From Xenorhabdus japonica (GTDB lineage Bacteria; Pseudomonadota; Gammaproteobacteria; Enterobacterales; Enterobacteriaceae), in NCBI RefSeq assembly GCF_900115195.1, contig NZ_FOVO01000025.1:1-57648 (forward strand): a DNA stretch of 57,648 bases. Reading direction: 5' to 3'. Within the stretch, counting starts at the first letter, position 1. Each line of letters starts with the position of its first letter. This document shows, piece after piece, positions 4,814 to 28,938 of the stretch. The notes beneath the pieces are model-generated. The model saw nothing but the letters and a program-made list of their open reading frames with translations, was not told the origin of the DNA and made no database searches. A program made the position numbers and the translations under genes.

Positions 4814-5656
<843 letters not shown>

Positions 5657-13986: not shown

Positions 13987-14018
13987 TTCGTAAAACCGTT
14001 TGTTTACGTAAATGATTT

Positions 14019-14053
14019 CCTGAGCTGGCGCAATTGCGCCAGCTCAGGATCTT
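14019..14053 (+). terminator. Terminator of tex
   Basis: A perfect palindromic hairpin runs from 14019 to 14048; each arm is 15 bases with sequence CCTGAGCTGGCGCAA or its complement. It is followed by ATCTTTTCT. It lies 33 bp past the tex stop. Confidence 0.85.
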
Positions 14054-14397
14054 TTCTATATTCTTTCAAAACACGTGAAGCTCTGACTGGTTAATATCAC
14101 TAAATATATTTTTAATTTAAATAAATTGTTACATGAAGATAATAAAACTTCTTCAATATCCACTCTAAAAACCCCATTGTTTTCATAGTAATAATTCTAT
14201 TTATTGCTGACGTGATAAATTTGAATAAGTGATGACACCTGCATCTTTACATAAATAATTCGTATACTTCGTTTCGCAATAAATCTCATAACAATGGGAA
14301 CTTATTGAATAATATAAAAAACTTCCTGATGTTCTTATACCCAATGGGCTTCGGGTTTTAGGTATAAAGAACTCATTCACACTGTTGAGGAAAAAAC
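14054..14397. other. AT-rich intergenic region with short ERIC-end-like dyad
   Basis: I see no gene in these 344 bp. At 14335-14367 TTATACC and GGTATAA form a dyad around CAATGGGCTTCGGGTTTTA. Its left part matches the outer end of an ERIC element (TATACCCAATGG), so this may be a much-deleted ERIC remnant. The promoter of the next gene must lie here. Confidence 0.4.
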
Positions 14398-14925
14398 ATG
14401 AACAAACACGTCCAAAGCAGTTTTGATCTACTCAGCAATATCCGTTTTTTCAGTCTTTCCACTCATGATCCAGATGCAGATACAGTCTGGTCATCAACAA
14501 TGTTTTATATTCCGAAATACAATCCACTGACACTGATCTGGTACTCCAAACAAGATACCCGACATTCGCAAGAATTGTGTATCAATCCCAGTGTAAGCGG
14601 TACAATCTACAGTAGTCGGGTTATGCCTGATTCATCGCTGGATCTGGCTGGTGCTCAATTTGTTGGTAGTGCCCGCCAAGTCCCCGATGATCAAATAGAA
14701 GAAACCTATGACTACTTTTTCTTAAAAACTTATCCTGATCCCGCTATCAGAAAGAAAAAATCCCGTCCTATCAGTGACTATCAAGGCCATGCCGTACGCC
14801 GTTTTTATGAGTTGGAAATTGAAAAATGGTGGGTGTACGACTCAAATGCCTGGAGCCAACATCAAGATGATGAGCGTGTACAAGTATCATTGAGTGAACT
14901 AAGTTACCCTCCTAAAGGTCAATGA
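14398..14925 (+). CDS. Pyridoxamine 5'-phosphate oxidase-like split-barrel protein (YhbP-like)
   Basis: This 175-residue protein resembles the FMN-binding split-barrel family, especially YhbP-type proteins (about 147 residues). The shared pattern is VWSSTMFYIPKYNPLTLIWY, then a DTRHSQEL segment, CINPSVSGTIYSS, and LAGAQFVGSARQVPDDQIEE. The C-terminal third, with ELEIEKWWVYDSN, matches the family's last strands. Whether it binds FMN, and on what substrate it acts, cannot be read from the sequence. It is a lone gene between tex and feoA with its own ribosome-binding site (GAGGAAAAAAC). Confidence 0.7.
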   Translation: MNKHVQSSFDLLSNIRFFSLSTHDPDADTVWSSTMFYIPKYNPLTLIWYSKQDTRHSQELCINPSVSGTIYSSRVMPDSSLDLAGAQFVGSARQVPDDQIEETYDYFFLKTYPDPAIRKKKSRPISDYQGHAVRRFYELEIEKWWVYDSNAWSQHQDDERVQVSLSELSYPPKGQ

Positions 14926-14934
14926 AAACCAACG

Positions 14935-14956
14935 AGCCCTGTTTATTGACAGGGCT
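14935..14956 (+). terminator. Possible terminator after the split-barrel gene
   Basis: An 8-bp stem (AGCCCTGT with ACAGGGCT, loop TTATTG) lies 10 bp after the stop. It lacks a clear T run, so its strength is uncertain. Confidence 0.45.
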
Positions 14957-15162
14957 TATCAGTTCAAGAAAATTTCCCGAATATTAAACAATTCCAATAG
15001 CGATTTATTTCCAATAAAGCCACCATTAATTTGATTAATATCAATTTATTCCTGCGTTATTCAGTATAAATAATCTGTATCGCAGTTACGTATTATTATC
15101 ATTAACAATTAGAGTTCAGATCAATTACCGAATTTTTTTCTTGTGAATTTCCCTTTATTGAG

Positions 15163-15181
15163 GATAATAATTCTCATAATC
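15163..15181 (+). promoter_or_regulatory. Fur box upstream of feoABC
   Basis: GATAATAATTCTCATAATC matches the 19-bp Fur consensus at 15 of 19 positions by my count. It lies 31 bp upstream of the feoA start. Iron-dependent repression of feoABC by Fur is expected, as in other enterobacteria. Confidence 0.75.
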
Positions 15182-15211
15182 ACTTATTTTTCAGTCAGAA
15201 TGGAGAGTTAT

Positions 15212-15460
15212 ATGGTTCTTATTCCAGAACATAGATATAAAATTCTGGGATTTTCTCCAGAGATTAGTCCCGCTTATCGGCAAAAATTATTGTCACTCGG
15301 CATGTTACCCGGCTCAACATTTCAGGTTATTCGCTTTGCTCCGTTAGGCGATCCAATACAAATCGAAACACGCAGAGTTAACCTTACCCTTCGTAAGCAA
15401 GACCTGGCATTTCTCATGTTGCATGAAGATCTGAATCCACAAAGCACTGAGTCGATGTAG
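15212..15460 (+). CDS. feoA: Ferrous iron transport protein FeoA
   Basis: FeoA is a small cytoplasmic SH3-like protein needed for FeoB-driven ferrous iron uptake. From the ATG at 15212, which follows a GGAGAG ribosome-binding site, it is 82 residues; the longer ORF from 15143 is not needed. The core [20 protein letters not shown], followed by [14 protein letters not shown] and LRKQDLAFL, is nearly the same as in E. coli FeoA. It is first in feoABC. Confidence 0.95.
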
Positions 15461-15576
15461 TTCAGAACAACCATTGTCTATACCGTTTTATAACCAGCTT
15501 AATAACCAGAGTACGAAGGTATAACCAAATTTATAACCAGAGTATGAAAGTCGCTTCCTGATTGGCAGAAAGTATA
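15461..15576 (+). repeat. feoA-feoB spacer with short tandem duplication
   Basis: The 116-bp spacer contains repeated copies of ATAACCAGAGTAYGAA separated by partial copies (ATAACCAGCTTA, ATAACCAAATTT), between about 15490 and 15549. No hairpin or gene is apparent. Confidence 0.55.
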
Positions 15577-17901
15577 ATGAAACAATTAACTATAGGCCTG
15601 ATTGGTAACCCCAATGCCGGCAAAACGACGCTTTTTAACCAGCTTACTGGCTCCCGACAACGAGTAGGAAACTGGGCTGGCGTTACGGTAGAACGCAAAA
15701 CAGGCCACTTTACCACCCATGACCATCAAGTCGAGCTTGTCGACCTCCCTGGTACTTATTCGCTCACCACTATTTCTGAGCAAACCTCCATTGATGAACA
15801 GATTGCCTGCCACTACATTCTGGGGGGTGAAGCCGATATGTTGATCAATGTTGTTGATGCATCGAATCTGGAGCGTAATCTTTATCTCTCACTGCAATTG
15901 ATTGAACTGGGCATTCCCTGCATCATTGCACTGAATATGCTGGATATAGCCCAAAGCCAACGCATCAATATTGATATTCCAGCACTGGAGAAACGCCTCG
16001 GCTGTCCGGTCATCCCGCTGGTTTCAACCCGCGCCACAGGAATAGATGCACTAAAAAACATCATTGATAATTACCCACAAAATACCTCACAGAAGTTCCG
16101 CCCTGTTCAGGTTGATTATCCTGATGCGTTATTGCAGGAAATTTTCCACCTTTCCAGCCAGATTACAGAGAAATTCACGCCACAACAGTGTCGCTGGCTG
16201 ACTTTGCAAGTGTTGGAAGGAGATATTTACAGCCGTGAGGTATCCGGCCTGACTCACGCGCAACTGGCAGAAAGCAACGGGCGCTTGCAAAAACAACAAA
16301 TTGAAGAACCCGACCTCATCATTGCAGGTTCACGCTACCAGACAATCAGTGAAATTTGTCTGTCTGTCATTGATACCCGCGCGGCAACACCAAATAAACT
16401 AACCCAAGCGTTAGATACCGTTATTCTGAACCGCTGGTTAGGGGTACCTATTTTCCTGTTTGCCATGTACCTGATGTTTGTGCTGGCCATCAATATTGGG
16501 GGAGCTTTACAGCCAATCTTCGACGGCGCTTCCACCGCCATTTTTATTGATGGGATGCAATGGCTTGGTCATACTCTCCATTTCCAGAATTGGTTGACGG
16601 TGTTCCTTGCTCAGGGAATTGGTGGAGGCATCAACACGGTACTGCCGCTGGTTCCCCAAATTGGCATGATGTATCTGTTCCTCTCCTTTCTGGAGGACTC
16701 CGGCTATATGGCACGAGCGGCGTTTGTCATGGACAGGATGATGCAGGCAATGGGATTGCCGGGTAAATCTTTTGTGCCCTTGATTGTTGGCTTTGGTTGT
16801 AACGTGCCTGCCGTGATGGGAGCAAGAACACTGGACGCCCCTCGCGAACGTTTGATTACCATCATGATGGCACCATTTATGTCCTGCGGGGCAAGATTGG
16901 CGATCTTTGCCGTCTTTGCAGCGGCTTTCTTTGGAAAAAGTGGGGCAAGTATCGTTTTCTCCCTGTATATACTGGGGATTGTCGTCGCCATCCTGACAGG
17001 GCTGCTGCTCAAATACACGCTGATGCGTGGTGAAGCATCGCCATTTGTGATGGAGCTGCCGGTCTATCACGTTCCTCATGCCAAAACTCTGCTGCTCCAG
17101 ACATGGCAGAGGCTGAAAGGTTTTGTGATACGCGCGGGTAAAGTGATTGTCGCGGCGAGTATGCTGATTGGTGCCCTGAACAGTTTCTCCTTCTCCGGTA
17201 AGACCGTGGATAATATCAATGAATCAGCATTAGCTTCCGTCAGTAAAGTGCTTACGCCTGTATTGCACCCCATTGGTGTGGATTCTGATAACTGGCAAGC
17301 CACTGTCGGGCTTATCACCGGAGCGATGGCAAAAGAAGTGGTTGTAGGAACCCTGAATACCCTATATACCGCAGAAAACATTACTCAAGAGCCATTCAAT
17401 CCAGATGCATTTAATTTATTGGATGAACTAAAGGGCTCCGTAGCAAAAACGTGGGATAGCCTGAAAGAAACCTTCACGCTGAATGCACTTTCTAACCCGA
17501 TTGAAGCCAGCAAAGGTGACGGCGATATGGATCGCGGTTCAATGGGAACCATGAGCGCCAAATTCGGCTCTGCTATTTCCGCTTACAGCTACCTGATTTT
17601 CGTGCTGCTGTATGTGCCTTGCGTTTCCGTCATGGGAGCCATTGCCCGCGAAACCAGCCGTGGCTGGATGACATTCTCCATTCTGTGGGGATTGAACGTC
17701 GCTTATTCTCTGTCAGCGCTGTTTTATCAAATCACAACGTTTTCGGCTCATCCACAAAGTAGCTTGATAACAATCTCGACCGTGATTCTGTTTAACATAT
17801 TAGTCTTTATTGGCTTACGCCGCGCACGCAGCAGAGTTACCGTTATGTTCAATAACACGACTGACCGTAGTTGCGAATGTTCAAAGGGCAGTTGCCACTA
17901 G
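15577..17901 (+). CDS. feoB: Ferrous iron transport protein FeoB
   Basis: FeoB is the inner-membrane Fe(II) transporter with a cytoplasmic G domain. From the ATG at 15577 it has 774 residues, against 773 in E. coli. The G domain shows G1 (GNPNAGKTT, residues 10-18), G3 (DLPG, 56-59) and G4 (NMLD, 120-123). The membrane domain, beginning near residue 280 (VPIFLFAMYLMFVL), contains the GFGCNVPAVMGART and SCGARLAIF gate motifs. The C-terminus ends in Cys-rich CECSKGSC. The ORF also runs five codons upstream from a TTG, which the family does not support. Confidence 0.98.
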   Translation: MKQLTIGLIGNPNAGKTTLFNQLTGSRQRVGNWAGVTVERKTGHFTTHDHQVELVDLPGTYSLTTISEQTSIDEQIACHYILGGEADMLINVVDASNLERNLYLSLQLIELGIPCIIALNMLDIAQSQRINIDIPALEKRLGCPVIPLVSTRATGIDALKNIIDNYPQNTSQKFRPVQVDYPDALLQEIFHLSSQITEKFTPQQCRWLTLQVLEGDIYSREVSGLTHAQLAESNGRLQKQQIEEPDLIIAGSRYQTISEICLSVIDTRAATPNKLTQALDTVILNRWLGVPIFLFAMYLMFVLAINIGGALQPIFDGASTAIFIDGMQWLGHTLHFQNWLTVFLAQGIGGGINTVLPLVPQIGMMYLFLSFLEDSGYMARAAFVMDRMMQAMGLPGKSFVPLIVGFGCNVPAVMGARTLDAPRERLITIMMAPFMSCGARLAIFAVFAAAFFGKSGASIVFSLYILGIVVAILTGLLLKYTLMRGEASPFVMELPVYHVPHAKTLLLQTWQRLKGFVIRAGKVIVAASMLIGALNSFSFSGKTVDNINESALASVSKVLTPVLHPIGVDSDNWQATVGLITGAMAKEVVVGTLNTLYTAENITQEPFNPDAFNLLDELKGSVAKTWDSLKETFTLNALSNPIEASKGDGDMDRGSMGTMSAKFGSAISAYSYLIFVLLYVPCVSVMGAIARETSRGWMTFSILWGLNVAYSLSALFYQITTFSAHPQSSLITISTVILFNILVFIGLRRARSRVTVMFNNTTDRSCECSKGSCH

Positions 17902-17913
17902 TCGGAGCCATAA

Positions 17914-18153
17914 ATGATTAATCTGCTGAAAATCAGAGATGCTGTTGCCCTCAACGGGCGTACCGATGCAAGGTCATTGAGCCATCAGTTTTCAGCACCG
18001 CTGCCAATGGTAGAAGCCATGCTCAAGCAGCTTGTCATTATGGGTAAACTGGAGGAAGTGGACACTTCCTCCTGCCTCAGCGGGGGCTGCAAACAGTGCC
18101 CGGAAACGCAAAAATGTGACACTAAGGCGTATCAGATTGCCGTAAAAAAATAA
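17914..18153 (+). CDS. feoC: Fe-S dependent regulator FeoC
   Basis: FeoC (79 residues) is a small winged-helix protein, present mainly in gamma-proteobacteria, that affects FeoB stability or feo transcription. The N-terminal helix-turn-helix (IRDAVALNGRTDARSLSHQF) is followed by CLSGGCKQCPETQKC. Its four cysteines are the proposed Fe-S ligands. It begins 12 bp after feoB and completes the operon. Confidence 0.93.
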   Translation: MINLLKIRDAVALNGRTDARSLSHQFSAPLPMVEAMLKQLVIMGKLEEVDTSSCLSGGCKQCPETQKCDTKAYQIAVKK

Positions 18154-18213
18154 GGAGTTGCCCCGTTGTCTAAATTAAACATCAACGACGAACCAGGTGA
18201 GAGCCACATATAG

Positions 18214-19281
18214 CTAAGCCCTCAGCTTTTGTTCTACCCATTGTGCGACTCGTTGTGCATCTCTGGCAGCACCCAGTAATAACTCAGAGCTGCGACTACT
18301 AAGCCATTTTCTGCCCACGATAAACAGCCCCGAATAGGCTGTTTTTCCTCCGTTTATATTACCACTTTCGCAGACAAAACCTTGTGAATCACTAATATCA
18401 GGTAAGGTCAACCAATCAGTTGCGTCCTTATATCCCACACACCAAATCAGTCCATCAATCTGGTATTTTTTTCCTTGTTGGTCATATAGTGTTTCATGTT
18501 CAGTTTTTACCAATTTTTGTGCTATCTGCACATTAAGCCCAGATAGATGTTGATTAGTAAGTTCACCACATGGAAGTGGATTACGTCGTTGCACTATTTT
18601 ACCGAGCAGGCTTGAAGTATCTGCATACAGTATCTTTGATTTATGTAGCCACCAGAATAGATCCTTCCCCAGAACTCTATTTGACACGAGAGGACGAGGA
18701 GAGCCGCAAAATAGAGTAACCTGCATAGAGGAGGAAAGTTCTTTTGATATCTGTCGGCCACTAGCACCATCACCTATGACAGCAATCCGAGACCCAGCCT
18801 GAAATTGCTCTGGGTTCTGATAACGGTCAGCCGTCAGTTGTTGGACTGAAGGGGACAGATCGCTCGCCATCTCAGGAATAATTGGTACTTGATTAGCACC
18901 AGTGGCGTTAATTAAACAAGGAGCAGAAAACTGCTCCTTTTTTTCTGTAGTCAGCGTAAACAACCCATCTTGATGCTTAACACTGATCACCTGTGTTCCC
19001 GTTAATACATTTAGATTATGATGATGTGCATAACGTTCTAGGTAATCTGCTATCTCATCCTTGCCCGGATAGCCATCAGGAGCGCCCTGCAAAGGAAAAT
19101 CAGGTAACTGGCTCATCATCCGGGAAGTAAATAATAACATATTGTCGGGACGCCTACGCCAAACATCGCCAATATGCTGGTCTCGCTCCAGAATCAAAGT
19201 ATTAATTTTTTTTTTGTTAAGGGTAACTGCCAGCGTTAGCCCCGCTTGCCCAGCACCAACGATCAAGCAATCGATTTTCAT
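18214..19281 (-). CDS. Flavin-dependent monooxygenase / NAD(P)-binding oxidoreductase
   Basis: This 355-residue protein belongs to the flavin-containing monooxygenase-like superfamily. The FAD dinucleotide motif is at residues 9-14 (GAGQAG), and a second nucleotide motif (GDGASG, 170-175) should bind NADPH. INATGANQVP and WCVGYKDAT are the conserved strands that follow these domains. Such enzymes hydroxylate or oxidise N, S or C atoms. The substrate here is unknown, but the gene is the sixth in a coupled operon. Its ATG overlaps the stop of the acyl carrier protein gene by four bases, so a carrier-bound or released acyl compound is the likely target. The signature of classical dimethylaniline-type FMOs is not clear. 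Confidence 0.85.
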   Translation of the reverse strand: MKIDCLIVGAGQAGLTLAVTLNKKKINTLILERDQHIGDVWRRRPDNMLLFTSRMMSQLPDFPLQGAPDGYPGKDEIADYLERYAHHHNLNVLTGTQVISVKHQDGLFTLTTEKKEQFSAPCLINATGANQVPIIPEMASDLSPSVQQLTADRYQNPEQFQAGSRIAVIGDGASGRQISKELSSSMQVTLFCGSPRPLVSNRVLGKDLFWWLHKSKILYADTSSLLGKIVQRRNPLPCGELTNQHLSGLNVQIAQKLVKTEHETLYDQQGKKYQIDGLIWCVGYKDATDWLTLPDISDSQGFVCESGNINGGKTAYSGLFIVGRKWLSSRSSELLLGAARDAQRVAQWVEQKLRA

Positions 19282-19523
19282 GGCATTGGCTCCAATTGCA
19301 GTATGTGTTCAGCCAAAGCGTGAATAGTGGGGTATTCATAGCCAAGGATAGGATCCAATTTTCGCTGCAATACTTTTTCTAACTGACCAATCAGGGTAAC
19401 CCTGCTTGCAGAATCCAGGCCAAGACTATCGAAAGAAACGTGTTCACCGATAGGAAGGTCATAGCGTTGGAAATAAGGTGTTAAATATTCAATCAGCCAG
19501 CCTTTTAACTCCAGCTCAGTCAT
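19278..19523 (-). CDS. Acyl carrier protein
   Basis: This is a stand-alone carrier protein of 81 residues from the ATG at 19523, which is preceded by AAGGAG. The phosphopantetheine attachment site is Ser38 in FDSLGLDSASRV. The rest is a predicted four-helix acyl carrier fold ending in EYPTIHALAEHILQL. It starts two bases after the fatty acyl-AMP ligase gene and overlaps the monooxygenase gene. It is therefore almost certainly loaded by that ligase and presents the acyl chain to the other enzymes. A phosphopantetheinyl transferase must be supplied from elsewhere. Confidence 0.92.
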   Translation of the reverse strand: MTELELKGWLIEYLTPYFQRYDLPIGEHVSFDSLGLDSASRVTLIGQLEKVLQRKLDPILGYEYPTIHALAEHILQLEPMP

Positions 19524-19524
19524 A

Positions 19525-21219
19525 TTATGCTCCTTGAGTTTCGGTGGTAGACAGTACATCGGCTAGTTGTAATTTGCCTTGCAAGTAGAGCGAACGGCAG
19601 AGTTTTCGTTGTACTTTTCCACTGCTGGTTGTAGGCAATTTATTAGTTTGAATAAACACTAAATCAGCGATATCGATATCGAACGCTGCATTAAGTGTCT
19701 GGATTACATTTCGTCTCAATTCTCTGAACTTGTTGTTTTCCCGTTTCACATTTTTTTGCAGCTCTATGGCGACAACAACCTGCTGTCCCAGTTCAAAAGC
19801 TATTGCTTTTCCTGAACGAAAGGCTATGGATTGCATAGTGGCCGTATATTCAATGTCCTGTGGATAGATATTCCTCCCCCGGATAATAATCAGATCTTTC
19901 AAACGGCCTGTAATCAACAAATGGTGTTGATACAAACAACCGAGATCACCGGTACGGAGAAAAGGCCCTTCGCCAGTGGTCGTATAGGCCATGAAGTTTT
20001 GCTGGGTTTGTTGTGGATTATTCCAATATCCTACGGCTATACTTGGTCCCTGAACCCAGATTTCACCGATTTCATCAGGCTCACACAATACTTTTGTATC
20101 CGGATTAACAATAACAACTCGGTGACCAGGTGCAACCTGACCACAGGCTTGCATTATAATCCCATCGGGTTTTAAGACCAGTTTCCCTTTTTCCAGACTG
20201 CTGCTGCAAAGTGTTAAACTCAATGGAGGATCTTCACTCGTGGATGAACTGATAACCAGAGTCGCTTCAGCCATGCCGTAACAAGGTATTTGGCTTTGAT
20301 AAATAAACCCATATTCTTTAACTGCCTGATAAAAACGCATCAATGTTTCATTTCTAACGGGTTCGGCACCATTACCAGCCCAACGCCAGCGGGACAGATC
20401 CAAATTAAGCCCAGAGCAATCTTGGTCAGCACATAAGTCATAAGCAAAATTGGGGGCACAACAGAATTCTGCCTTATAATCATGCATCAACTGTAACCAA
20501 CGTAATGGCTGCTGGATAAATGATAATGGTGACATGAAGTTATATTGTCCACCCAAGGCCATAGTCATTAAAATATGTCCCACCAATCCCATATCGTGAA
20601 ACTGAGGTATCCAGCCTCCAATAACTAACCCTTCATGCAAGCCAAAAGTATTATTCATTGCCCGCAAGTTATGGATTAAATTATCGTGAGTGACCATCAC
20701 TCCTTTAGGGGTATCAGTGGAACCAGAGGTATATTGCAAGAAAGCCAATTGCTCTGGACTGATTGAGGGAAGTTCGGTTATTTCATCTATTGGCTGATTT
20801 TCCGAGTAATATATGATCCCCAACTCAGGAAATTCATTTGATAAAACCCTGCCTAACCCTGAAGTGGTGAGAATCACTTTAGCTTCGGAGTCATTCAAGA
20901 TTTGAGTTAACCTTTGTAGATGGCGACTTCCGCGAACTACATTGGATGGAACAGCAATAACCCCAGCCTTAAAACAGGCTAATAACCCGACAATAAACTC
21001 CAGACCTGCAGGGTACATCAAAATAACCGTTTTCCCTTGCTGCCCAGCAGTAACGAGTGCACAAGCCAGTTGATGAGAACGTTGTTCGAGTTCTTGCCAA
21101 GACAGGGTAACAGTATCTGAATCTCCTGAAGGTAAAAAACGATATACAATTTGATTTGGCCGCTGTGAAGCATAATGTTTAAAACAGCATAATAGTGTTT
21201 GTGCATGCTCCAACATCAT
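19525..21219 (-). CDS. Fatty acyl-AMP ligase (FAAL-type adenylation enzyme)
   Basis: This 564-residue enzyme is a member of the acyl-adenylate family. The P-loop is TSGSTDTPKG at residues 164-173. WIPQFHDMGL at 203-212 is characteristic of FAAL-type enzymes, which activate fatty acids as acyl-AMP and pass them to a carrier protein rather than CoA. The tail has RGRNIYPQDIE and the C-terminal Lys region (LPTTSSGKVQRKLCR). The start at 21219 overlaps the stop of the cysteine desulfurase gene as ATGA; the ORF runs 12 codons further upstream inside that gene. The acyl carrier protein gene follows after one base. Chain length and specificity cannot be read by eye. Confidence 0.9.
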   Translation of the reverse strand: MMLEHAQTLLCCFKHYASQRPNQIVYRFLPSGDSDTVTLSWQELEQRSHQLACALVTAGQQGKTVILMYPAGLEFIVGLLACFKAGVIAVPSNVVRGSRHLQRLTQILNDSEAKVILTTSGLGRVLSNEFPELGIIYYSENQPIDEITELPSISPEQLAFLQYTSGSTDTPKGVMVTHDNLIHNLRAMNNTFGLHEGLVIGGWIPQFHDMGLVGHILMTMALGGQYNFMSPLSFIQQPLRWLQLMHDYKAEFCCAPNFAYDLCADQDCSGLNLDLSRWRWAGNGAEPVRNETLMRFYQAVKEYGFIYQSQIPCYGMAEATLVISSSTSEDPPLSLTLCSSSLEKGKLVLKPDGIIMQACGQVAPGHRVVIVNPDTKVLCEPDEIGEIWVQGPSIAVGYWNNPQQTQQNFMAYTTTGEGPFLRTGDLGCLYQHHLLITGRLKDLIIIRGRNIYPQDIEYTATMQSIAFRSGKAIAFELGQQVVVAIELQKNVKRENNKFRELRRNVIQTLNAAFDIDIADLVFIQTNKLPTTSSGKVQRKLCRSLYLQGKLQLADVLSTTETQGA

Positions 21220-22397
21220 ATTCTTTGTTCTCCTGCAATAGCTAATAGATGCCATGTTTCCTGTTGTAAAGCATTAGCCAGAACACTAACTTCATGCTGC
21301 TCAGTAACATGTCCAAAGCTTATCCTTAATGCACTATCGATATAGTCATGGGGAGATTGCATCGCAAGTAAAACATGTGAACGTTGGGGTGACTGTGAGT
21401 TATTGCTACAAGCAGATCCCAATGAAACAGAAATACCGTGGCATAAATCCAATCGGCTTGCTAACGCTTCGGCTCTAATACCAGGGAAACTGATATTTAA
21501 TGTCCATGGAGCCTGATACTCAGGATTTGTCTCACCGTTGACGTGATAATTCACACCGAACTCATCTAATTGAGTGAGCAGGTAAGTTCTCATTTCACGG
21601 CAGTAATTAATGCGTTGCATCAATTCTTCATGAGCTTCTTTTGCAGCAGCAGCTAATCCGGCTATTCCTAATGTATTTTCTGTGCCACTACGTAAACCGT
21701 GTTCTTGTCCACCGCCATGTAGTAAGGGATTAATTTTCACTTGCTGGCTGTAATACAGCCCACCTATCCCTTTAGGGGCATAAAACTTATGCCCGGAAAA
21801 GGAGATAGTTAATGGGATATCATCAAAACTGCTCATCGGCCATTTTCCTACTGCTTGTATGGCATCGAAATGCAGATGGATACCTTTTCCTTTCAGTCTG
21901 GAAGCCAGCTTATCGTAGGGTTGAATGACACCAGTTTCATTGTTGATCGCCATCAATGCGATGAAACAAGTTTGGGGTGTGATGGCATTACACAAGGTAT
22001 CCGGATCTATTCTTCCTGTTTTACTCGGTTCAATGACTGTGAGTTTCAGGCCTTGCGCTTGATACCAACGCAGAGGTTCCAGAATTGAAGAATGTTCAAT
22101 TGCAGAACAGATAGCGTGATAGCGTGATAATTGACCAACTGGAAGCTGGCTGAATACACTGTGCAGCGCCAAGTTATTGCTCTCTGTTCCCCCAGAAGTA
22201 AAAATGATCCTTTCTGACGAACCTCCCACTAATTGAGCTATTGACTCTTTTGCCTGATGAATCAACGTCACCAAATTTTGGCTCAAACGATATCTACTGG
22301 AAGGATTGCCAAATTGATCCAACATACCCTGAATTGCCATCTTTGCCTTATGACTCAGTGGTGTTGTCGCATTGAAATCAAAGTACAACATTGTCAT
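21216..22397 (-). CDS. Cysteine desulfurase (NifS/IscS family)
   Basis: This is a PLP enzyme of 393 residues that would turn cysteine into alanine and an enzyme-bound persulfide. The PLP lysine is Lys204 in SFSGHKFYAPKG, His102 lies in AIEHSSIL, and the sulfur-accepting Cys330 lies in VSLGSACSNNSQ. GGGQEHGLRSGTENT is diagnostic. It is close to NifS/IscS in length and motifs but is not part of an isc or suf cluster. It lies between a NifU-like scaffold gene (4-base overlap) and the fatty acyl-AMP ligase gene (4-base overlap). Its sulfur could go to an Fe-S cluster needed by the pathway or into the product itself. Confidence 0.92.
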   Translation of the reverse strand: MTMLYFDFNATTPLSHKAKMAIQGMLDQFGNPSSRYRLSQNLVTLIHQAKESIAQLVGGSSERIIFTSGGTESNNLALHSVFSQLPVGQLSRYHAICSAIEHSSILEPLRWYQAQGLKLTVIEPSKTGRIDPDTLCNAITPQTCFIALMAINNETGVIQPYDKLASRLKGKGIHLHFDAIQAVGKWPMSSFDDIPLTISFSGHKFYAPKGIGGLYYSQQVKINPLLHGGGQEHGLRSGTENTLGIAGLAAAAKEAHEELMQRINYCREMRTYLLTQLDEFGVNYHVNGETNPEYQAPWTLNISFPGIRAEALASRLDLCHGISVSLGSACSNNSQSPQRSHVLLAMQSPHDYIDSALRISFGHVTEQHEVSVLANALQQETWHLLAIAGEQRI

Positions 22398-22750
22398 ATA
22401 TGCACCCTTACCTGCTGAAAAAGAGCATGCAACATAGCCAAACAATGCTGCTGTGAAGGTTGCAACTTACCTAACATACTATCGATATCTTGTGTGCTGA
22501 ATTGGGCAATCTCTGTCAGCGTTTTTCCTTGAACCTGACGACAAAACTGATTGGACATGGCTAAAGAAGTCGTACATCCCCAGGCTTGAAAACGAGCCTC
22601 ATTGATATGCCCTCCTTCACTCAATGACAAATCAATATTCACTGTATCCCCACACACAGGGTTACCCAACTTCAGTTGAATATCCGGATTTGTTAGGCTT
22701 CCCTGAAAATCAGGATTACAGAAGTTATCAGTGATAATTTCATTAAACAT
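22394..22750 (-). CDS. NifU/IscU-like Fe-S scaffold protein
   Basis: The 118 residues correspond to the IscU/NifU N-terminal domain. GNPVCGDTVNIDL holds Cys33 and Asp35, FQAWGCTTSLAMSN holds Cys59, and PSQQHCLAML holds Cys103. These are the three Cys and one Asp that bind the nascent cluster in IscU. The NifU C-terminal (Nfu) and central ferredoxin-like domains are absent. It starts 9 bp after the LuxE-like gene and overlaps the cysteine desulfurase gene by four bases. The full ligand set suggests a working scaffold or sulfur acceptor dedicated to this operon. Confidence 0.88.
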   Translation of the reverse strand: MFNEIITDNFCNPDFQGSLTNPDIQLKLGNPVCGDTVNIDLSLSEGGHINEARFQAWGCTTSLAMSNQFCRQVQGKTLTEIAQFSTQDIDSMLGKLQPSQQHCLAMLHALFQQVRVHI

Positions 22751-22759
22751 GATTAAACC

Positions 22760-23941
22760 TCACTGAGTCACAGGGCACGCATCCCTTTGTTCATCAGCAG
22801 ACATTTTACCTTCGAGATTAACGGCACAGCAGCCGAATTCTGTTGCAGAAGGTGCCCGCATAACATATTGCATACGTTGGGAGTTACGCCCTGATGGATC
22901 ATAATCAGTACGCAGATAAATCATGTCTTCAGTCAACAACATACCCGGTGTTGAGCGTGCTATGGGATCAAAAATAACAAGCTGTCCCATCTCACCATCA
23001 GCAACTTCCTGGGACAAATTTTCCGGATCACGCACAGAGAAATGAATATAAGGTGGTATGTGTTTTTGATTAAACTCATCCTCTATAGCCAAAAAGTTAG
23101 CTTCAACAAGTCCATACATATCACGAATCTGGTTAGCAGGAATACCCAACCAAGTTTCCAGCTCCTGATTAAATTCGGTGCGGGAGATCATGGCACCAGT
23201 GAAACGCTTCCAGCCACCGAGCGTAATGACCATACTTCCACTATCCAATTCCAACTTAGTGTTTGTAGCTTTTAAGAAGCTGATAAAACGATGAATAAGA
23301 AATGGAGGCCCAATCAGATGGCGAGTAAATTTTCCTTGCCATTCTTTTAATTGACTGACAGCTTCTTCCGGAACAAAACGTTCTTCCTTAACCATAAAGC
23401 GATTTGTATCCAGTAACCCAGCCAGCCAATTGAAGGCTTTTATCATGCCCATTTCAGGGATTTCCTCTGTGGAAGGACATAAACAGAGTCCCGCACCACT
23501 GGAGAGTTTAAGCATATCGCGAAATGAGTTATAGAGACCCAGAGTCGTATAATCCATTGTTTCATCACATCGACGGGCAACACTCGGAATACCACTAGTG
23601 CCTGTCGAACGCATTTCATGTTCGATGCTGGAAAGAGGTTTACTTAAAAGACGATGACTATTTGCAGATTTAAACGTAGATACGGGAATAACCGGGATAT
23701 TTACTAAATCTGTGTAATTTTGAATATCACTAGGTTGTACCCCTTTATTTTGACATTGTTCACGGTAGTAAGCATTATTTTCAAAATGATATTTAAAGGC
23801 ATCTCTAATAATATGGGTTTTTAATTCTTGTTGTTCTTCAATTGGAAGACTATAGAGAAAGTTACTATTTGTGATTAACCATTTTATAGAGTCACCATTT
23901 ACTTCCTTTATTTTTTCATACAACTCTATCGATTTGAACAT
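22760..23941 (-). CDS. LuxE-like acyl-protein synthetase
   Basis: This 393-residue protein belongs to the LuxE/PaaK branch of the adenylate-forming enzymes. It shows STGTSGIPS at residues 112-120 (nucleotide loop), ITLGGWKRF near 240-247 and MYGLVE near 275-280. In bioluminescent bacteria LuxE activates a fatty acid and transfers it to its own Cys before reduction by LuxC. Here a pair of Cys at 371-372 (TEFGCCAV) lies close to where LuxE carries its acyl acceptor. No luxC, luxD, luxA or luxB is nearby, so this is not a luminescence operon. It is the first gene of the six-gene operon. The start at 23941 follows AAGGATGG; an upstream in-frame start adds 13 residues. Confidence 0.85.
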   Translation of the reverse strand: MFKSIELYEKIKEVNGDSIKWLITNSNFLYSLPIEEQQELKTHIIRDAFKYHFENNAYYREQCQNKGVQPSDIQNYTDLVNIPVIPVSTFKSANSHRLLSKPLSSIEHEMRSTGTSGIPSVARRCDETMDYTTLGLYNSFRDMLKLSSGAGLCLCPSTEEIPEMGMIKAFNWLAGLLDTNRFMVKEERFVPEEAVSQLKEWQGKFTRHLIGPPFLIHRFISFLKATNTKLELDSGSMVITLGGWKRFTGAMISRTEFNQELETWLGIPANQIRDMYGLVEANFLAIEDEFNQKHIPPYIHFSVRDPENLSQEVADGEMGQLVIFDPIARSTPGMLLTEDMIYLRTDYDPSGRNSQRMQYVMRAPSATEFGCCAVNLEGKMSADEQRDACPVTQ

Positions 23942-24487
23942 ATAAACCATCCTTATAGTTATTATATATTTTTTTACCATCGTTTAACGAATATCTTTAC
24001 CAAATATGCATAAGAAATAAGTAATTCGTATAAGTAATTTCTTGCAAACGCAAATCTAACGATGGTGCTTTAATTTTGCTTGAATAAACTGGCTAATTTT
24101 GTCCCTCTGTAAATAATTTGTATGGAATACATGACTGCCTGTCATAATTACATAAATTTTTTCTTAACATTACCTTCCATCTTCCTCAGTTCCACCCACC
24201 TCAGCCAGATTATTCAATTCAATCACTTCAATAAGTTATAAAGTGAATATTCCGAGTATCTTAAAGTGTTAGCAGGCAGAATTTCTAAGTATGAAATTCA
24301 CTCTATGAACAGTATTTTCATTTGAGTCATATGAAACGATAAAGCTAAGAGGGTGATATATAGTTAAGTTGGTTTCTCATTTGAGGAGAGTGGTAAACCT
24401 GTGATAGGGCAAATACGGATGTCTGGAGATAGCATATCAATATAAGTTTTTGGATATGCCTATTCATTCAATGAATCGGAGTTGAGT
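23942..24487. promoter_or_regulatory. Divergent regulatory region between the acyl operon and the exporter genes
   Basis: This 546-bp AT-rich region holds the leftward promoter of the six-gene operon and the rightward promoter of the emrA-like gene. An outer inverted repeat AAGAAAT (24012-24018) and ATTTCTT (24037-24043) encloses two direct copies of ATAAGTAATT-like sequence. A second dyad, ATTCATTCAATGAAT (24462-24476), lies just before the emrA start. Either could be an operator, for example for the AraC-type regulator at 27190-28071. I see no gene here. Confidence 0.45.
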
Positions 24488-25675
24488 ATGGGAAATAACC
24501 AAATTGAAACAATGCCTGAACAACCACAAGAAGAAAATAATAAGAAAAAACGTAAAATAATACTTTCTTTTGTTGTATTACTTTTTTTGTTTGTTGGTTT
24601 AGCTTATCTGTTTTACTGGTACACAGTATTACGTTTCTACCAATCAACAGATAACGCCTATGTTGTCGGTAATCAGATCCAAGTCATGTCTCAAACCCAT
24701 GGCAGTGTGAAAAATATTTATGTTGATAATACCGATTTTGTTCAGCAAGGTGACCTTTTACTAACGTTGGATAGTGCTGACGCTAAGAATATCTTCGAGA
24801 AAAGTAAGCATGCATTAGCCCAGGCAGTGCGTGAAACACGAGAAACTATCCTCAGTAATCCCAAGCTCCTGGCCAATGTGGAATTAAAACAACTTACCTT
24901 AGACAAGTTAAAAAGTAATCTAGCACGACGGGAAAAGTTGGGTAAGGTCAATGTCATCGCTGTTGAAGAACTGGATCACTCTCGTAAAGCTGTTGATATT
25001 GCTAAGGCAGATTTAAAAGTCGCCATGCAGCAGTATAAAATCAATCAAGCTTTGGTGATGGGAACGCCACTAAACAAGCTGCCAAATATAGAAAAAGCAG
25101 CATCCAATTTACGTGAAGCTTGGTTGTCTTTACAACGTACTAAAATCTACGCTCCGGTAAGTGGGTATGTATCACGCCGCAGTGTTCAAGTTGGAGCGCA
25201 AATCAATCAATCCACGCCATTGATGATTATCGTTCCTCCTGACCAGATATGGGTTGAGGCAAATTTTAAAGAAGTACAGTTCACTGATATGCGTCTGGGG
25301 CAGCCCGTCAAGTTAATCAGCGATTTTTATGGCGATAGTGTTACTTATCAGGGACGTATTACGGGTATGGATATAGGAACCGGCAGCGCTTTTTCTATCC
25401 TCCCTGCTCAGAATGCAACAGGTAATTGGATTAAAGTGGTTCAGCGCCTCCCTGTACGCATTGAATTAGATCCGAAACAAATTGCCTCCAATCCATTACG
25501 AATCGGTTTATCCATGCATGCGACAGTTGATACCAGAGAAACAGCAGGCACAACTCTGACTAATAAAACTCCACAACGGGTTATTTATCAGACTGATGTC
25601 CTTTCATTCAATAATAATGAGATAGATGAAATCATTGAGCAAATCATAAAAAGCAACGCAAGTGATGAAAATTGA
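24488..25675 (+). CDS. EmrA-like membrane fusion protein (HlyD family)
   Basis: This periplasmic adaptor of a tripartite drug or metabolite exporter has 395 residues from the ATG at 24488, with GGAG upstream. A charged N-terminal tail is followed by one membrane anchor (about residues 24-46). Next comes the biotinyl-lipoyl-like strand YQSTDNAYVVGNQIQVMSQT, a coiled-coil hairpin (roughly 100-190), and the return strand RTKIYAPVSGYVSRRSVQVG. The sequence is EmrA/EmrK-like. It partners the MFS gene just downstream, and an outer membrane TolC-type channel would be encoded elsewhere. Confidence 0.9.
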   Translation: MGNNQIETMPEQPQEENNKKKRKIILSFVVLLFLFVGLAYLFYWYTVLRFYQSTDNAYVVGNQIQVMSQTHGSVKNIYVDNTDFVQQGDLLLTLDSADAKNIFEKSKHALAQAVRETRETILSNPKLLANVELKQLTLDKLKSNLARREKLGKVNVIAVEELDHSRKAVDIAKADLKVAMQQYKINQALVMGTPLNKLPNIEKAASNLREAWLSLQRTKIYAPVSGYVSRRSVQVGAQINQSTPLMIIVPPDQIWVEANFKEVQFTDMRLGQPVKLISDFYGDSVTYQGRITGMDIGTGSAFSILPAQNATGNWIKVVQRLPVRIELDPKQIASNPLRIGLSMHATVDTRETAGTTLTNKTPQRVIYQTDVLSFNNNEIDEIIEQIIKSNASDEN

Positions 25676-25688
25676 GGATCACACAGCT

Positions 25689-27197
25689 ATGGAACCTTTA
25701 TCAGCCAGCCAACGCTGGTGGCTAATCCTGTCTCTGGCGGTTATCGCTTTTCTGCAAATATTGGATTTGACAATTGCTAACGTGGCATTGTCAACCATTG
25801 CAGGTGATCTTGGATCATCCGTGTCACAAGGAACTTGGGTTATCACGTCATTTGGTGTTGCTAATGCAATCTCTATTCCTTTGACTGGCTGGTTGGCAAA
25901 ACGGGTAGGGGAAGTACGGCTGTTTATCATTTCGACTCTGCTTTTTATCATTTCTTCCTGGCTATGTGGCATATCCAATAGCCTTGAAATGCTAATTATT
26001 ACAAGGATTATGCAAGGTGCTGTTGCAGGCCCTATTATACCTTTATCACAAAGCTTGCTTTTAGCGAATTTTCCTAAGAACCAACACAGTATGGCTTTGG
26101 CCATCTGGTCTATGACCGTCATTATTGCCCCGGTTTGTGGTCCAATCCTCGGTGGATGGATTAGCGATAACTATCACTGGGGCTGGATTTTCTTGATCAA
26201 TGTTCCCATCGGCCTGGCTGCTATTTTTATCACTTACTTGTTATTGAATAAGCGTGAAACAAAAACTGAGGTTATCCCAGTTGATAAGGTGGGGTTGGTT
26301 CTACTCATTATCGGTGTTGGTTGCCTACAACTCATGTTAGACAGAGGAAAAGAACTCGACTGGTTTAATTCCAATGAGATCATCTTGCTGGCTATTATTG
26401 CAACGATAGGGATTATCCTATTTATCATTTGGGAACTGACTGATGATAACCCGATTGTTGATTTATCGTTGTTTAAATCACGCAATTTTACAGTTGGTAC
26501 GATTTGTATTAGTTTGGCATTTTTATTACACATCGGTGTCCTAGTCTTACAACCTCAGTTGTTACAGACAGTTTTTGGTTATACCGCCACTTGGGCTGGA
26601 CTAGCATTAGCTCCTCTTGGCATTCTTCCTGTTTTTCTAGCCCCAGTCATTGGCCGATTTGGTGCTAAAATTGATATGCGCTATTTGGTTACTCTTAGCT
26701 TTGTTGTCTTCTCTTTCTGCTTTTTTTGGCGAGCGTATACTTTTGAGTCTGGAATGGATTTTTCCAGCGCAGCATGGCCACAGTTTGTGCAGGGGATAGC
26801 GATCGCCTGTTTTATTATGCCACTCAATGTGATTATTTTATCTGATATTCCTCAGGAGAAAGTTGCCTCAGCTGGAAGTTTGTTTAACTTCTTTAGAACA
26901 TTAGCCATATCTATAGGTACATCGTTAACCAATACGTTATGGGTTCAACGTGAAGCGGTTCATCATTCTCAGCTCACTGAGCACATCACACAAAATAACG
27001 TTCTTGTCGATTTAGCTTATCAGGATATCAAGCTCTTAGGATTATCTGACTTGCAAGCAACCGTTTTTTTGGCAAAGAGGATCACCAACCAGAGTTTAAT
27101 TCTGGCCGCTAACGAAATTTTCTGGCTCTTTGGTTTTATTTTTCTGGCACTAATCTTGATTCTGTGGTTTTCCAGATCGAATTTGTCGTCTACATAA
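25689..27197 (+). CDS. EmrB-like MFS multidrug/metabolite exporter (DHA2, 14 TM)
   Basis: This is an inner-membrane proton antiporter of 502 residues from the ATG at 25689. An earlier ATG at 25665 overlaps the emrA end and is possible. Fourteen hydrophobic segments are expected. The N-terminal half is nearly that of EmrB: LDLTIANVALSTIAGDLGSS, QGTWVITSFGVANAISIPLT and WSMTVIIAPVCGPILGGWIS (family motif C). With the EmrA-like protein it should pump an amphipathic compound across both membranes. Being divergent from the acyl operon, it is the obvious candidate to export that operon's product, but exporters of this type also give general resistance. Confidence 0.93.
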   Translation: MEPLSASQRWWLILSLAVIAFLQILDLTIANVALSTIAGDLGSSVSQGTWVITSFGVANAISIPLTGWLAKRVGEVRLFIISTLLFIISSWLCGISNSLEMLIITRIMQGAVAGPIIPLSQSLLLANFPKNQHSMALAIWSMTVIIAPVCGPILGGWISDNYHWGWIFLINVPIGLAAIFITYLLLNKRETKTEVIPVDKVGLVLLIIGVGCLQLMLDRGKELDWFNSNEIILLAIIATIGIILFIIWELTDDNPIVDLSLFKSRNFTVGTICISLAFLLHIGVLVLQPQLLQTVFGYTATWAGLALAPLGILPVFLAPVIGRFGAKIDMRYLVTLSFVVFSFCFFWRAYTFESGMDFSSAAWPQFVQGIAIACFIMPLNVIILSDIPQEKVASAGSLFNFFRTLAISIGTSLTNTLWVQREAVHHSQLTEHITQNNVLVDLAYQDIKLLGLSDLQATVFLAKRITNQSLILAANEIFWLFGFIFLALILILWFSRSNLSST

Positions 27198-28071
27198 TTT
27201 GGAGATGAGCCTCTTCTTCATGATGCTCTTGTTCCTCGGAAATACTATGTATTACCTGTTTATTGATGTTATAAAGGCATTGAGCTGTGTGACAGTTGAG
27301 CTGTGAATTTTGTTGAATTATCTGCTTAAGATCGGAGGGGCGCATTCCATAAGCCATTTTGCATGTCCGGCTAAAATGAGCAGTATCAGAAAAACCACAG
27401 TTATTCGCAATCAAGGTTAAGGAATCAGCCATATGAATCTCCTCAATAGCATCACTTAAGCGTAACCATAGTAAGTAAGCCCGAAAGTTAATTCCCACTT
27501 GATCACGGAAAAGATGTAAAAAACGGCTTTCAGAAAGGTAAATTTTATCAGCCACTTGACGGGATGAAATCCGCTTTACTGATAGCGATTCGATAAACGA
27601 AACAGCTTTCAAAATACGTTTATCAAATTGACAATGACATGACAAGTATGGGCTAAGTAACAAGTAAACAGTGAATGTGTCTGGTTTTTCACCACAAAGA
27701 AACGACTTAACCAGATAATCTGTTACTGCCACAATATTATCATGCTCTAGCAAAATTACTGCCACATTCTCTGTGAGATGGCTAAATAAATGGTAATGTT
27801 CATCAATCGGTTCAATAAGCAATGTAATGCTACAGGTATTGGAGGAGTCCATCTTATGCATTACGTTTGAGCGAATCAGAAAACCATGAGTGGAGTGAGT
27901 CTCATCCTGTATTGATAAGGCTAACGATTCATCTGTATGTAAAGATAGGCTGAGTTGAATACAGGGATGTTGATGCCACTCAGTTGATACATTGTAAAGA
28001 AAGTTTAATTCACTAGTAGCATATTTATATTGCTGGATAAACCTAGGGGCAGCCGGAATATTTGATAGCAT
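27190..28071 (-). CDS. AraC-family transcriptional regulator
   Basis: This 293-residue protein has the typical AraC layout. The N-terminal sensing region (about 1-160) begins with a cupin-like stretch (WHQHPCIQLSLSLH). The C-terminal double helix-turn-helix (about 165-265) shows ISSRQVADKIYLSESRFLHL and SLTLIANNCGFSDTAHFSRT, then YGMRPSDLKQ. The start at 28071 is preceded by AAGGATTGAGG. It overlaps the end of the emrB-like gene tail to tail by 8 bp. It is the likely regulator of the exporter and perhaps of the acyl operon; the ligand is unknown. The His/Glu-rich tail (SEEQEHHEEEAH) is unusual. Confidence 0.88.
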   Translation of the reverse strand: MLSNIPAAPRFIQQYKYATSELNFLYNVSTEWHQHPCIQLSLSLHTDESLALSIQDETHSTHGFLIRSNVMHKMDSSNTCSITLLIEPIDEHYHLFSHLTENVAVILLEHDNIVAVTDYLVKSFLCGEKPDTFTVYLLLSPYLSCHCQFDKRILKAVSFIESLSVKRISSRQVADKIYLSESRFLHLFRDQVGINFRAYLLWLRLSDAIEEIHMADSLTLIANNCGFSDTAHFSRTCKMAYGMRPSDLKQIIQQNSQLNCHTAQCLYNINKQVIHSISEEQEHHEEEAHLQIM

Positions 28072-28494
28072 AACCTCAATCCTTATCAACAAAGCAGTGA
28101 GTGAATGTAGTCGATCTTAATTTGCAATCTTCTCTACATTAATCTTGTAGCCGATATGCAGTCAACCATATACAGTCAACCAATAATAACAAGGCTAATA
28201 GCACAATTCACATAGGATTATTATGTTTGTTTAGAAATCGCAATATTATCACACTGATAACCTGTCAAAGATAATATGTAAAGAAATATTTACATGAAAA
28301 ATGAGGATAAAAAATTCATTTTTTAACTCTGATAATGTTTTTTACCAGAACAAGTTTACTCACTGTTTTAATGTAATTTATGTTATTACTTGGGAACTAA
28401 ATTTTATTAGTTTCATTAAAATTGAAAAATAAAAAACAGTCCCTTATTATCTGATTTGCATTTCTATCATTATTAATAACCTAAGGATACCAAT
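28072..28494. other. AT-rich intergenic region
   Basis: This 423-bp region lies between the divergent AraC-type and OsmC-family genes and carries their promoters. At 28158-28182 CAGTCAACCA occurs twice in tandem (spacing 14). The right half is above 70% A+T by eye. No gene is supported. Confidence 0.5.
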
Positions 28495-28938
28495 ATGTCT
28501 AAAGAGTTATTTACTGCAACTATAGAGCCTGTAGGGCCTCTGAAAATGAAATGTTCCTCACGAAACTTTTCCTTCTATGTAGACGAACCAAAAAGCTTAG
28601 GAGGGGAAGATGAAGCAATGACTCCGGTAGAAGCATTACTTTCCGCTTTCGGAGCCTGTCAGGCTATGGTGGCGAAAGTCTTTGCTAATGCACAGAAGAT
28701 AAATCTGATTGATATCAAGATAACACTAGAAGGTGAATTAGACCTCGACCGAATCAAAGGCATAAATAAAAACGCCAAACTGGGTTTTTCAAAAATTACC
28801 TCAAAATTTTATGTTAAAGCAGATAATACCGAACAAGAGATCCGAGATTTTATTACTTTTGTCGAAAATCATTGCCCTGTTCTCGATACTATCGTTAATA
28901 CACCCGAAATTGTGACTGAAGTTTATCCTGTCAAATAA
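28495..28938 (+). CDS. OsmC/Ohr-family protein
   Basis: This 147-residue protein has the OsmC fold, whose members are thiol-dependent peroxidases. Two conserved cysteines are visible, one in LLSAFGACQAMVAKVFA and one in VENHCPVLDTI, as in the YhfA/OsmC group. It probably protects against organic peroxides or handles reactive acyl or sulfur species. Being next to the acyl-sulfur operon may be meaningful, but it is a separate transcription unit with its own ribosome-binding site (CTAAGGATA). Confidence 0.8.
   Translation: MSKELFTATIEPVGPLKMKCSSRNFSFYVDEPKSLGGEDEAMTPVEALLSAFGACQAMVAKVFANAQKINLIDIKITLEGELDLDRIKGINKNAKLGFSKITSKFYVKADNTEQEIRDFITFVENHCPVLDTIVNTPEIVTEVYPVK

Follow-up and report, generated by a model that had tools for sequence, protein, structure and literature searches.

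The window, a stretch of 57,648 nucleotides from the 3.56 Mb genome of Xenorhabdus japonica (assembly GCF_900115195.1, contig NZ_FOVO01000025.1), contains a six-gene operon on the minus strand (18214–23941) that encodes, in order of transcription, a LuxE-family protein (LuxE), an IscU-like protein (NifU), a NifS-like cysteine desulfurase (NifS), a fatty acyl-AMP ligase (FAAL), an acyl carrier protein (ACP), and a flavin monooxygenase (FMO). Judged by the encoded families, the conserved residues, and the recurrence and variants of the gene set, the chances are about even that this operon is dedicated to the biosynthesis and export of a sulfur-bearing acyl product, and incorporation of sulfur into that product appears likely. 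A narrower proposal, to which we give somewhat less than an even chance, is that Pseudomonadota, Cyanobacteriota, and Bacillota share a sulfur-release module not described before, made up of LuxE, NifU, and NifS and exchangeable between pathways. In it, a LuxE with vicinal cysteines would take a carrier-bound acyl group (supplied by FAAL, a type II fatty acid synthase, or a nonribosomal peptide synthetase), receive sulfur from an IscU-like donor, and give rise to exported lipid thioacids or their S-oxidized forms.

Conservation of the six-gene set

The six open reading frames (ORFs) were confirmed to lie head-to-tail with spacings of 9, 2, −4, 1, and −4 bases, respectively, in agreement with an earlier annotation made without database searches (the sequence-only reading), which had described same-strand genes with 4-base overlaps or gaps of 1 to 9 bases. 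The gene families named there are borne out by Pfam, whose cut-off is exceeded by each of the six proteins (Table 1). NCBIfam returns the same families with all scores under the curated cut-offs (for FMO and FAAL, among the matches listed), and each operon protein is accordingly a divergent family member. Compared with Xenorhabdus sp. BG5, identity is 90–95% for five of the genes and 89% for NifU.

A scan of genome-collection contigs with LuxE as the query recovered 32 loci, 29 of which carry the six-gene set in identical order and strand, a count that takes in L042, where the FMO match covers 59% of the query close to the contig end. Homologues in the conserved loci are 31–95% identical to the window proteins. 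Because six homologues recur in the same order in so many loci, a chance arrangement is excluded, and the search across genomes that the sequence-only reading had proposed thus finds the genes conserved together. The loci belong to Xenorhabdus, Cellvibrio, Azohydromonas, Pseudoduganella, Pseudomonas, Deefgea, Curvibacter, Marinobacterium, Microbulbifer, Colwellia, Shewanella, Photobacterium, Lysobacter, Alteromonas, Pseudoalteromonas, Actibacterium, a Nostocales cyanobacterium, and further metagenome-assembled genomes. The three exceptions are Photobacterium lipolyticum (L029), which has five genes and lacks FMO; L044, in which the contig ends past FAAL; and L053, in which LuxE is followed by a transposase-like ORF and is the only member found. 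Gene fusions also occur, FAAL sharing a single ORF with ACP in L024 and with NifS in L033. Among the 41 loci read, 40 have NifU adjoining NifS, the exception being L053 (in L033, NifS lies within the longer ORF).

Outside these contigs, a plasmid search at an E-value of 1e-40 matched 14 of 72,556 records, all from Priestia and with 48–49% identity. The Priestia aryabhattai LAD plasmid carries the permuted order FAAL-FMO-ACP-LuxE-NifU-NifS, and in Priestia (Bacillota) the gene set is thus retained though its order has changed. The FAAL gene on the Priestia megaterium KF18 plasmid (L101:6820-8585) is annotated as two coding sequences, and as one in P. aryabhattai LAD. That Pseudomonadota, a cyanobacterium, and Bacillota all keep these genes together backs the proposal that the six serve one pathway.

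The distribution of the LuxE marker is patchy. With the centre genome included in each count, the marker occurs in 9 of 30 genomes of the source's own genus and in all 12 genomes of the genus of G138, which is most likely Photorhabdus, judging from a congener (L082) whose LuxE shares 97% identity with a named protein from Photorhabdus luminescens. At higher ranks it occurs in 3 of 247 genomes for the source order (two from the same genus as the source), in 3 of 369 for the class, and in 2 of 398 for the phylum (both from the source's genus). The P. lipolyticum family has it in 4 of 197 genomes, and the phylum that includes the Nostocales genome in 2 of 339. Within the family sample, 20 of 149 genomes match LuxE at an E-value of 0.001, only three of them strongly (E ≤ 3e-181; the next at 4e-14). 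A protein search with LuxE found 440 homologues at an E-value of 1e-60, and the residue counts given below for 120 homologues refer to the 120 matches listed of these 440. Genome G895 encodes a protein identical to one of Gilliamella sp. B2776. Spearman correlations of gene distances among five of the genes range from 0.67 to 0.88; they were computed on 21 of the 41 alignment rows, picked so as to leave out near-duplicates, with no correction for shared ancestry, and count as weak support.

Exchangeable acyl supply and constant core

The genes that would supply the acyl group vary between loci. In four Photorhabdus-type loci (of the 12 genomes) the FMO is divergent, and LuxE-NifU-NifS is followed by ACP, ketosynthase (KS), MaoC-like, and ketoreductase (KR) genes and by EmrA, with EmrB also present wherever the fetched stretch extends far enough; the ACP, KS, MaoC-like, and KR names are backed by Pfam at L081. 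The Gilliamella locus L093 has by homology the same set, that is, a small type II fatty acid synthase (FAS) in place of FAAL-ACP, and its MaoC-like protein has no Pfam match at 1e-5. A third arrangement is found in the Vibrionaceae genome G636 (L092), where LuxE-NifU-NifS is followed by a thioesterase and then by a FAAL-ACP-C-A-PCP synthetase, in which a Pfam scan found no terminal release domain (thioesterase or reductase); FMO was not found in the L092 stretch as fetched. By manual reading, the A domain of this synthetase (gene 11826-17096) has D-L-Y-N at the first code positions, which may point to cysteine or alanine.

In Xenorhabdus szentirmaii (L027), the FAAL-ACP form lies between ilvY and ilvA, the same chromosomal site that the FAS form occupies in Photorhabdus (the identities of ilvC, ilvY, and ilvA were confirmed in L027 and L081), and a swap of the acyl supply within one locus may be one explanation. 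Across all intact loci read, the constant part is LuxE, NifU, NifS, and a carrier protein. Every supply route would finish as a carrier-bound acyl group, and the joining of three such routes to LuxE-NifU-NifS supports the proposed sulfur-release mechanism.

As controls, eight distant LuxE-like loci (23–28% identical) were inspected, and all eight are without a nearby NifS or NifU homologue, although seven of them span only 3.4–4.0 kb; one control locus (L005) has a weak FAAL-like match. The source genome itself has a second, distant LuxE-like gene (25% identical) on contig C34 (L065:4297-7909), adjoining an 827-aa ORF that combines a LuxC acyl-CoA reductase domain with an AMP-binding part, and no NifS or NifU homologue was found within the 14 kb read.

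Vicinal cysteines in LuxE

The operon LuxE retains the ATP loop (STGTSG), with T113 in 119 and G114-G117 in all 120 of the listed homologues. Residue C371 aligns with the C-terminal GC of the LuxE in PDB 7xc6_E and is presumably the equivalent of the cysteine that is acylated in LuxE. The C371-C372 pair is present in 41 of 41 operon proteins (near-duplicates included here and in the other counts of 41) and in all 120 listed homologues. On the other hand, the eight distant LuxE-like proteins all keep the cysteine but have S or A as the next residue and never the pair (0/8), and the second cysteine, C372, is operon-specific. The operon protein thus resembles bioluminescence LuxE in family, ATP loop, and aligned C-terminal cysteine, but differs in having this second cysteine and no adjoining luxC, luxD, or luxAB, and it scores below the bioluminescence equivalog NF052244 of NCBIfam (158.9 vs 550 bits).

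Other cysteines are also conserved: C63 and C125 occur in all 120 listed homologues and C155 in 118, and among the 41 operon proteins C63 and C125 each occur in 40, C155 in 38, and C389 in 34. An Fe-S site formed from all conserved LuxE cysteines was rejected, as C125, C155, and C389 are not universal. The structure model of LuxE (mean pLDDT 87.3, pTM 0.86) matched PaaK-type ligases and other adenylating enzymes among the best 50 fold-search matches listed, as predicted from the superfamily.

NifU and NifS as a probably dedicated pair

NifU has C33, C59, and C103 in 41 of 41 proteins and an extra C70 in 40 of 41; in a set of 34 sequences, C33, D35, C59, H102, C103, and C70 are all present throughout. 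It ends in VRVHI, that is, without a Gly-Gly terminus, and is the sole candidate for a sulfur carrier in the operon. Its best NCBIfam scores are 62.1 vs 187.9 bits for NifU_clost and 60.4 vs 92.5 bits for SufU, and no equivalog cut-off of a scaffold subfamily is reached. A NifU homologue of Frischella perrara (P0135) is 55% identical to the window protein. In NifS, C328 (41/41) and K202 (34/34), which we take to be the catalytic cysteine and the lysine that binds pyridoxal 5'-phosphate (PLP), are retained. As in the NifS-NifU and IscS-IscU systems of Fe-S assembly, a desulfurase is paired with a scaffold that has an aspartate and three cysteines, but unlike those pairs, the operon pair is coupled to acyl-activating genes, misses all NCBIfam cut-offs, and has the extra C70. 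Moreover, the source genome encodes a second NifS-like/IscU-like pair, side by side and elsewhere, and the operon pair is therefore probably dedicated.

The sequence-only reading had offered two roles for this pair, sulfur addition or maturation of an Fe-S enzyme, and the former is now favoured because, among the pathway proteins searched, only NifU has an Fe-S Pfam match and the other NifS-like/IscU-like pair exists. Fe-S maturation was weighed as the main role and ranked below sulfur addition. In such a scheme, which we regard as decidedly unlikely, NifS and NifU would build an Fe-S cluster for LuxE or for an unlinked client, and the product would be free of sulfur or the cluster itself would be the sulfur source. 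The retained scaffold residues of NifU and the further conserved cysteines C63, C125, and C155 of LuxE fit this scheme, and there is precedent for a [4Fe-4S] sulfur insertase in LarE of Thermotoga maritima, according to the available part of PMC9283937. However, a Pfam search of the pathway proteins (the six of the window; the ACP, KS, MaoC-like, and KR proteins of two FAS-type loci; and the synthetase and thioesterase of L092) yielded no Fe-S family match except NifU, the Priestia LuxE has lost C125 and C155 yet keeps C371 and C372, and the genome has its other pair.

FAAL, ACP, and FMO

The best NCBIfam scores of FAAL are to an entry for nonribosomal peptide synthetases (NRPS) and polyketide synthases (PKS), PRK05691 (408 bits), and then to fatty-acid--AMP ligase (398 bits). 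Its best PDB matches are 7r7f ("Polyketide synthase") and 3kxw ("Saframycin Mx1 synthetase B"), followed by the AMP ligases FadD23, FadD32, and FadD28, and it appears to be nearer to fatty-acid--AMP ligases than to CoA ligases. S38 in the GLDS motif of the ACP is present in 31 of 31 sequences. The solved structures closest to the FMO are PDB 4usr (8.4e-27), 4usq, 4c5o, and 4a9w, which we take to be SMFMO-type enzymes able to oxidise sulfides.

The FAAL-ACP part of the operon resembles lipid and lipopeptide pathways in which FAAL loads a fatty acid on a stand-alone carrier, and the operon could be of this ordinary kind, with NifS performing other PLP chemistry that has no sulfur role and LuxE merely passing the acyl group to an acceptor. 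We consider this very unlikely: FAAL-ACP and LuxE-like enzymes do act, as a matter of general knowledge, in many sulfur-free pathways, but the desulfurase cysteine is invariant and NifU adjoins NifS almost throughout. The operon also differs from such pathways in that its common form has no PKS or NRPS and in that an exchangeable supply cassette is joined to LuxE-NifU-NifS.

Proposed mechanism and its difficulties

The pathway may begin with FAAL, which would adenylate a fatty acid and load it on the ACP, while NifS would draw sulfur from cysteine as a persulfide and hand it to NifU, which would act here as a sulfur carrier and not as a general Fe-S scaffold. Cys371 of LuxE would accept the acyl group, either from acyl-ACP or from the acyl-AMP of the released acid. 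We infer that a persulfide delivered by NifU to Cys372 then attacks the acyl thioester, so that sulfur is transferred to the acyl carbonyl and a thiocarboxylic acid (or an acyl persulfide) results. FMO may oxidise the product, with sulfur as the simplest site (acyl-sulfenic type). In the sulfenicin pathway, which leads to an acylsulfenic acid, a flavin enzyme reportedly hydroxylates the sulfur of a thiocarboxylic acid. Finally, EmrAB could export the product, possibly under the control of the AraC regulator.

Several observations weigh against this mechanism. FAAL and LuxE both appear to be ATP-dependent, which leaves a second activation unexplained, and LuxE might activate a different acid; likewise, retention of the LuxE ATP site is unexplained if the acyl group comes from the ACP. 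NifU has the full ligand set of an Fe-S scaffold (C33, D35, C59, H102, and C103) and need not be a sulfur carrier. In Priestia, NifU is without C70, in addition to the loss of C125 and C155 from LuxE, and no clear exporter adjoins the gene set. The oxidation step is not universal, since FMO is missing from the L092 stretch and from P. lipolyticum, whose genome has none at an E-value of 1e-30. Furthermore, 7xc6 is absent from the best 50 fold-search matches listed for the LuxE model.

The two activating enzymes, both with conserved ATP loops, would also fit a product that contains sulfur in a form other than a carboxyl-terminal thioacid, for instance if two acyl groups (one from FAAL-ACP, the other activated by LuxE) were joined via sulfur, or if a second acid activated by LuxE were coupled to the FAAL product. 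L092, which keeps LuxE beside a synthetase already holding FAAL and A domains, points the same way. We nevertheless hold such a product to be unlikely, as the set has no conserved enzyme dedicated to coupling and the vicinal cysteines of LuxE would suit the meeting of acyl group and sulfur on a single enzyme.

Comparison with known thioacid pathways

In the PtmA3/PtmU4 cassette of thioplatensimycin biosynthesis, as described in the available part of PMC6006322, an acyl-CoA is acted on by a type III CoA-transferase-like sulfurtransferase with Gly-Gly sulfur carriers, and related thioacid products named there are thioquinolobactin, PDTC, and yatakemycin. The mechanism proposed for the operon is alike in that an activated acid and sulfur from a protein carrier would yield a thiocarboxylic acid, but LuxE, the IscU-like NifU, NifS, and the ACP would take the place of those components. 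No Pfam match to a two-domain type III CoA-transferase (PtmU4 type) was found among the six operon proteins, the rest of the genome not being searched. As it has none of the PtmA3/PtmU4 components, the operon is not a member of this group, but its function may be equivalent.

Xenorhabdus itself offers a precedent for persulfide chemistry on acyl chains, though via the pxb cluster: the photoxenobactins of X. szentirmaii DSM 16338 carry thiocarboxylic acid and dithioperoxoate ends (PMC9177418, available part). These ends on a carrier-bound product resemble what is proposed here, but photoxenobactins derive from a yersiniabactin-like NRPS/PKS, and no LuxE, NifU, or NifS is named for them in the available text of PMC9177418. 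DSM 16338 is the strain of locus L027 and also carries the operon, so a contribution of the operon in trans to photoxenobactins is conceivable. More generally, the operon might supply the sulfur ends of a known product made elsewhere, and the pxb machinery is termed cryptic in the available part of PMC9177418. This explanation seems extremely improbable, given that the operon brings along an acyl supply (FAAL-ACP or FAS) and is carried by many genera; in addition, the term "thiocarboxylic acid" occurs in a paper on siderophores of Vibrio anguillarum (PMC12421891), and piscibactin-type pathways may suffice alone. In the same survey of Xenorhabdus and Photorhabdus clusters (PMC9177418), the terms "LuxE", "sulfur", and "cysteine desulfurase" are absent from the main text as available, and the conserved-cluster section does not describe the operon locus. 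The sequence-only reading knew of no described pathway with this gene set, and none was found in the open-licence literature searched, a scope that leaves most subscription journals and all preprints outside; the route may have been described before.

Export, regulation, and chromosomal site

In Xenorhabdus the unit is larger than six genes and includes an EmrAB exporter and an AraC-family regulator (Table 1), which accompany the operon in seven of seven loci; in two of these (L026 and L028) the six genes are inverted relative to emrAB-araC. Scans of 23900-24520 and 18100-18300 found no sigma-70-like promoter or terminator-like site.

Table 1. Features of the operon and its adjoining export and control genes in the window.
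Feature	Position	Strand	Details
FMO, single-component flavin monooxygenase	18214..19281	-	355 aa; PF13738 (Pyr_redox_3) 94 bits
ACP, stand-alone acyl carrier protein	19278..19523	-	81 aa; PF00550 (PP-binding) 39 bits; motif GLDS
FAAL, fatty acyl-AMP ligase	19525..21219	-	564 aa; PF00501 (AMP-binding) 220 bits and DIP2-like C-terminal domain
NifS-like class I cysteine desulfurase	21216..22391	-	391 aa; PF00266 (Aminotran_5) 205 bits
NifU N-terminal/IscU-like scaffold	22394..22750	-	118 aa; PF01592 (NifU_N) 80 bits
LuxE-family acyl-protein synthetase/acyltransferase	22760..23941	-	393 aa, first gene; PF04443 136.4 bits vs cut-off 24.9
Divergent intergenic region, presumed control region of operon and emrAB	23942..24481		ORF layout
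EmrA/HlyD-type membrane fusion protein	24482..25675	+	Listed start TTG; HlyD families
EmrB-type MFS exporter	25662..27197	+	PF07690; 73% identical to Photorhabdus-locus protein
AraC-family regulator	27190..28092	-	HTH_18; 47% identical to Photorhabdus-locus regulator

Elsewhere the adjoining transport genes differ. Among the 24 loci L029-L052, an MMPL transporter is present in 21, of which 19 also have a barrel-protein match and a LolA-like part, separate or fused (fusions called by length, plus Pfam for L031 and L032), and two (L034 and L041) have MMPL alone. The remaining three are L042 and L044, which are cut by the contig end, and the cyanobacterium L046, which has ABC-2 genes; in another cyanobacterium (L098) the genes are of the HlyD and FtsX types. 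An AraC-like gene occurs in 8 of the 24 loci, and a TetR gene lies near the Priestia set. Such lipid-type export machinery would fit a lipid product. Downstream in L032, L033, and L049, a minus-strand ORF of 1285-1455 aa was rejected as a gene and is likely an antisense artefact, because a plus-strand MMPL ORF overlaps it in each case (MMPL-LolA by Pfam in L032).

The placement of the operon between feoC and bioH, proposed in the sequence-only reading, is partly confirmed. The flanking genes match FeoC (79 bits, under the 111-bit cut-off) and BioH (333 bits, over 207), and in E. coli (one genome) only rpnA separates the two genes. Of the seven Xenorhabdus loci, five (L022-L026) have feo genes beside the module, L028 shows the bioH side only, and L027 lies at the ilvY-ilvA site. 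An OsmC-family gene (28495-28938) is situated between the AraC gene and bioH in the window, and in Xenorhabdus sp. BG5 (L022) two OsmC copies in the same orientation (5123-5566 and 15855-16298) flank the whole module, possibly as a trace of its movement. In X. anantnagensis (L025:10444-13607), the interval between FMO and feoC contains an extra ORF without Pfam match, a class V aminotransferase, and an MFS protein. Farther away in the window are a low-complexity ORF (78-1073) whose 331 aa include a long Lys-Ile repeat (IKIKIK...) and two overlapping ORFs (40759-42208) with Pfam matches to the AbiEi antitoxin and AbiEii toxin of a type IV toxin-antitoxin system.

Significance

If the proposed function is true, a family of secreted sulfur lipids is predicted, together with a route to C-S bond formation in which an IscU-like protein would serve as the sulfur donor. 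The LuxE marker also extends to Gilliamella and to many genera from marine and soil habitats, and the vicinal-cysteine LuxE provides a handle for genome mining.

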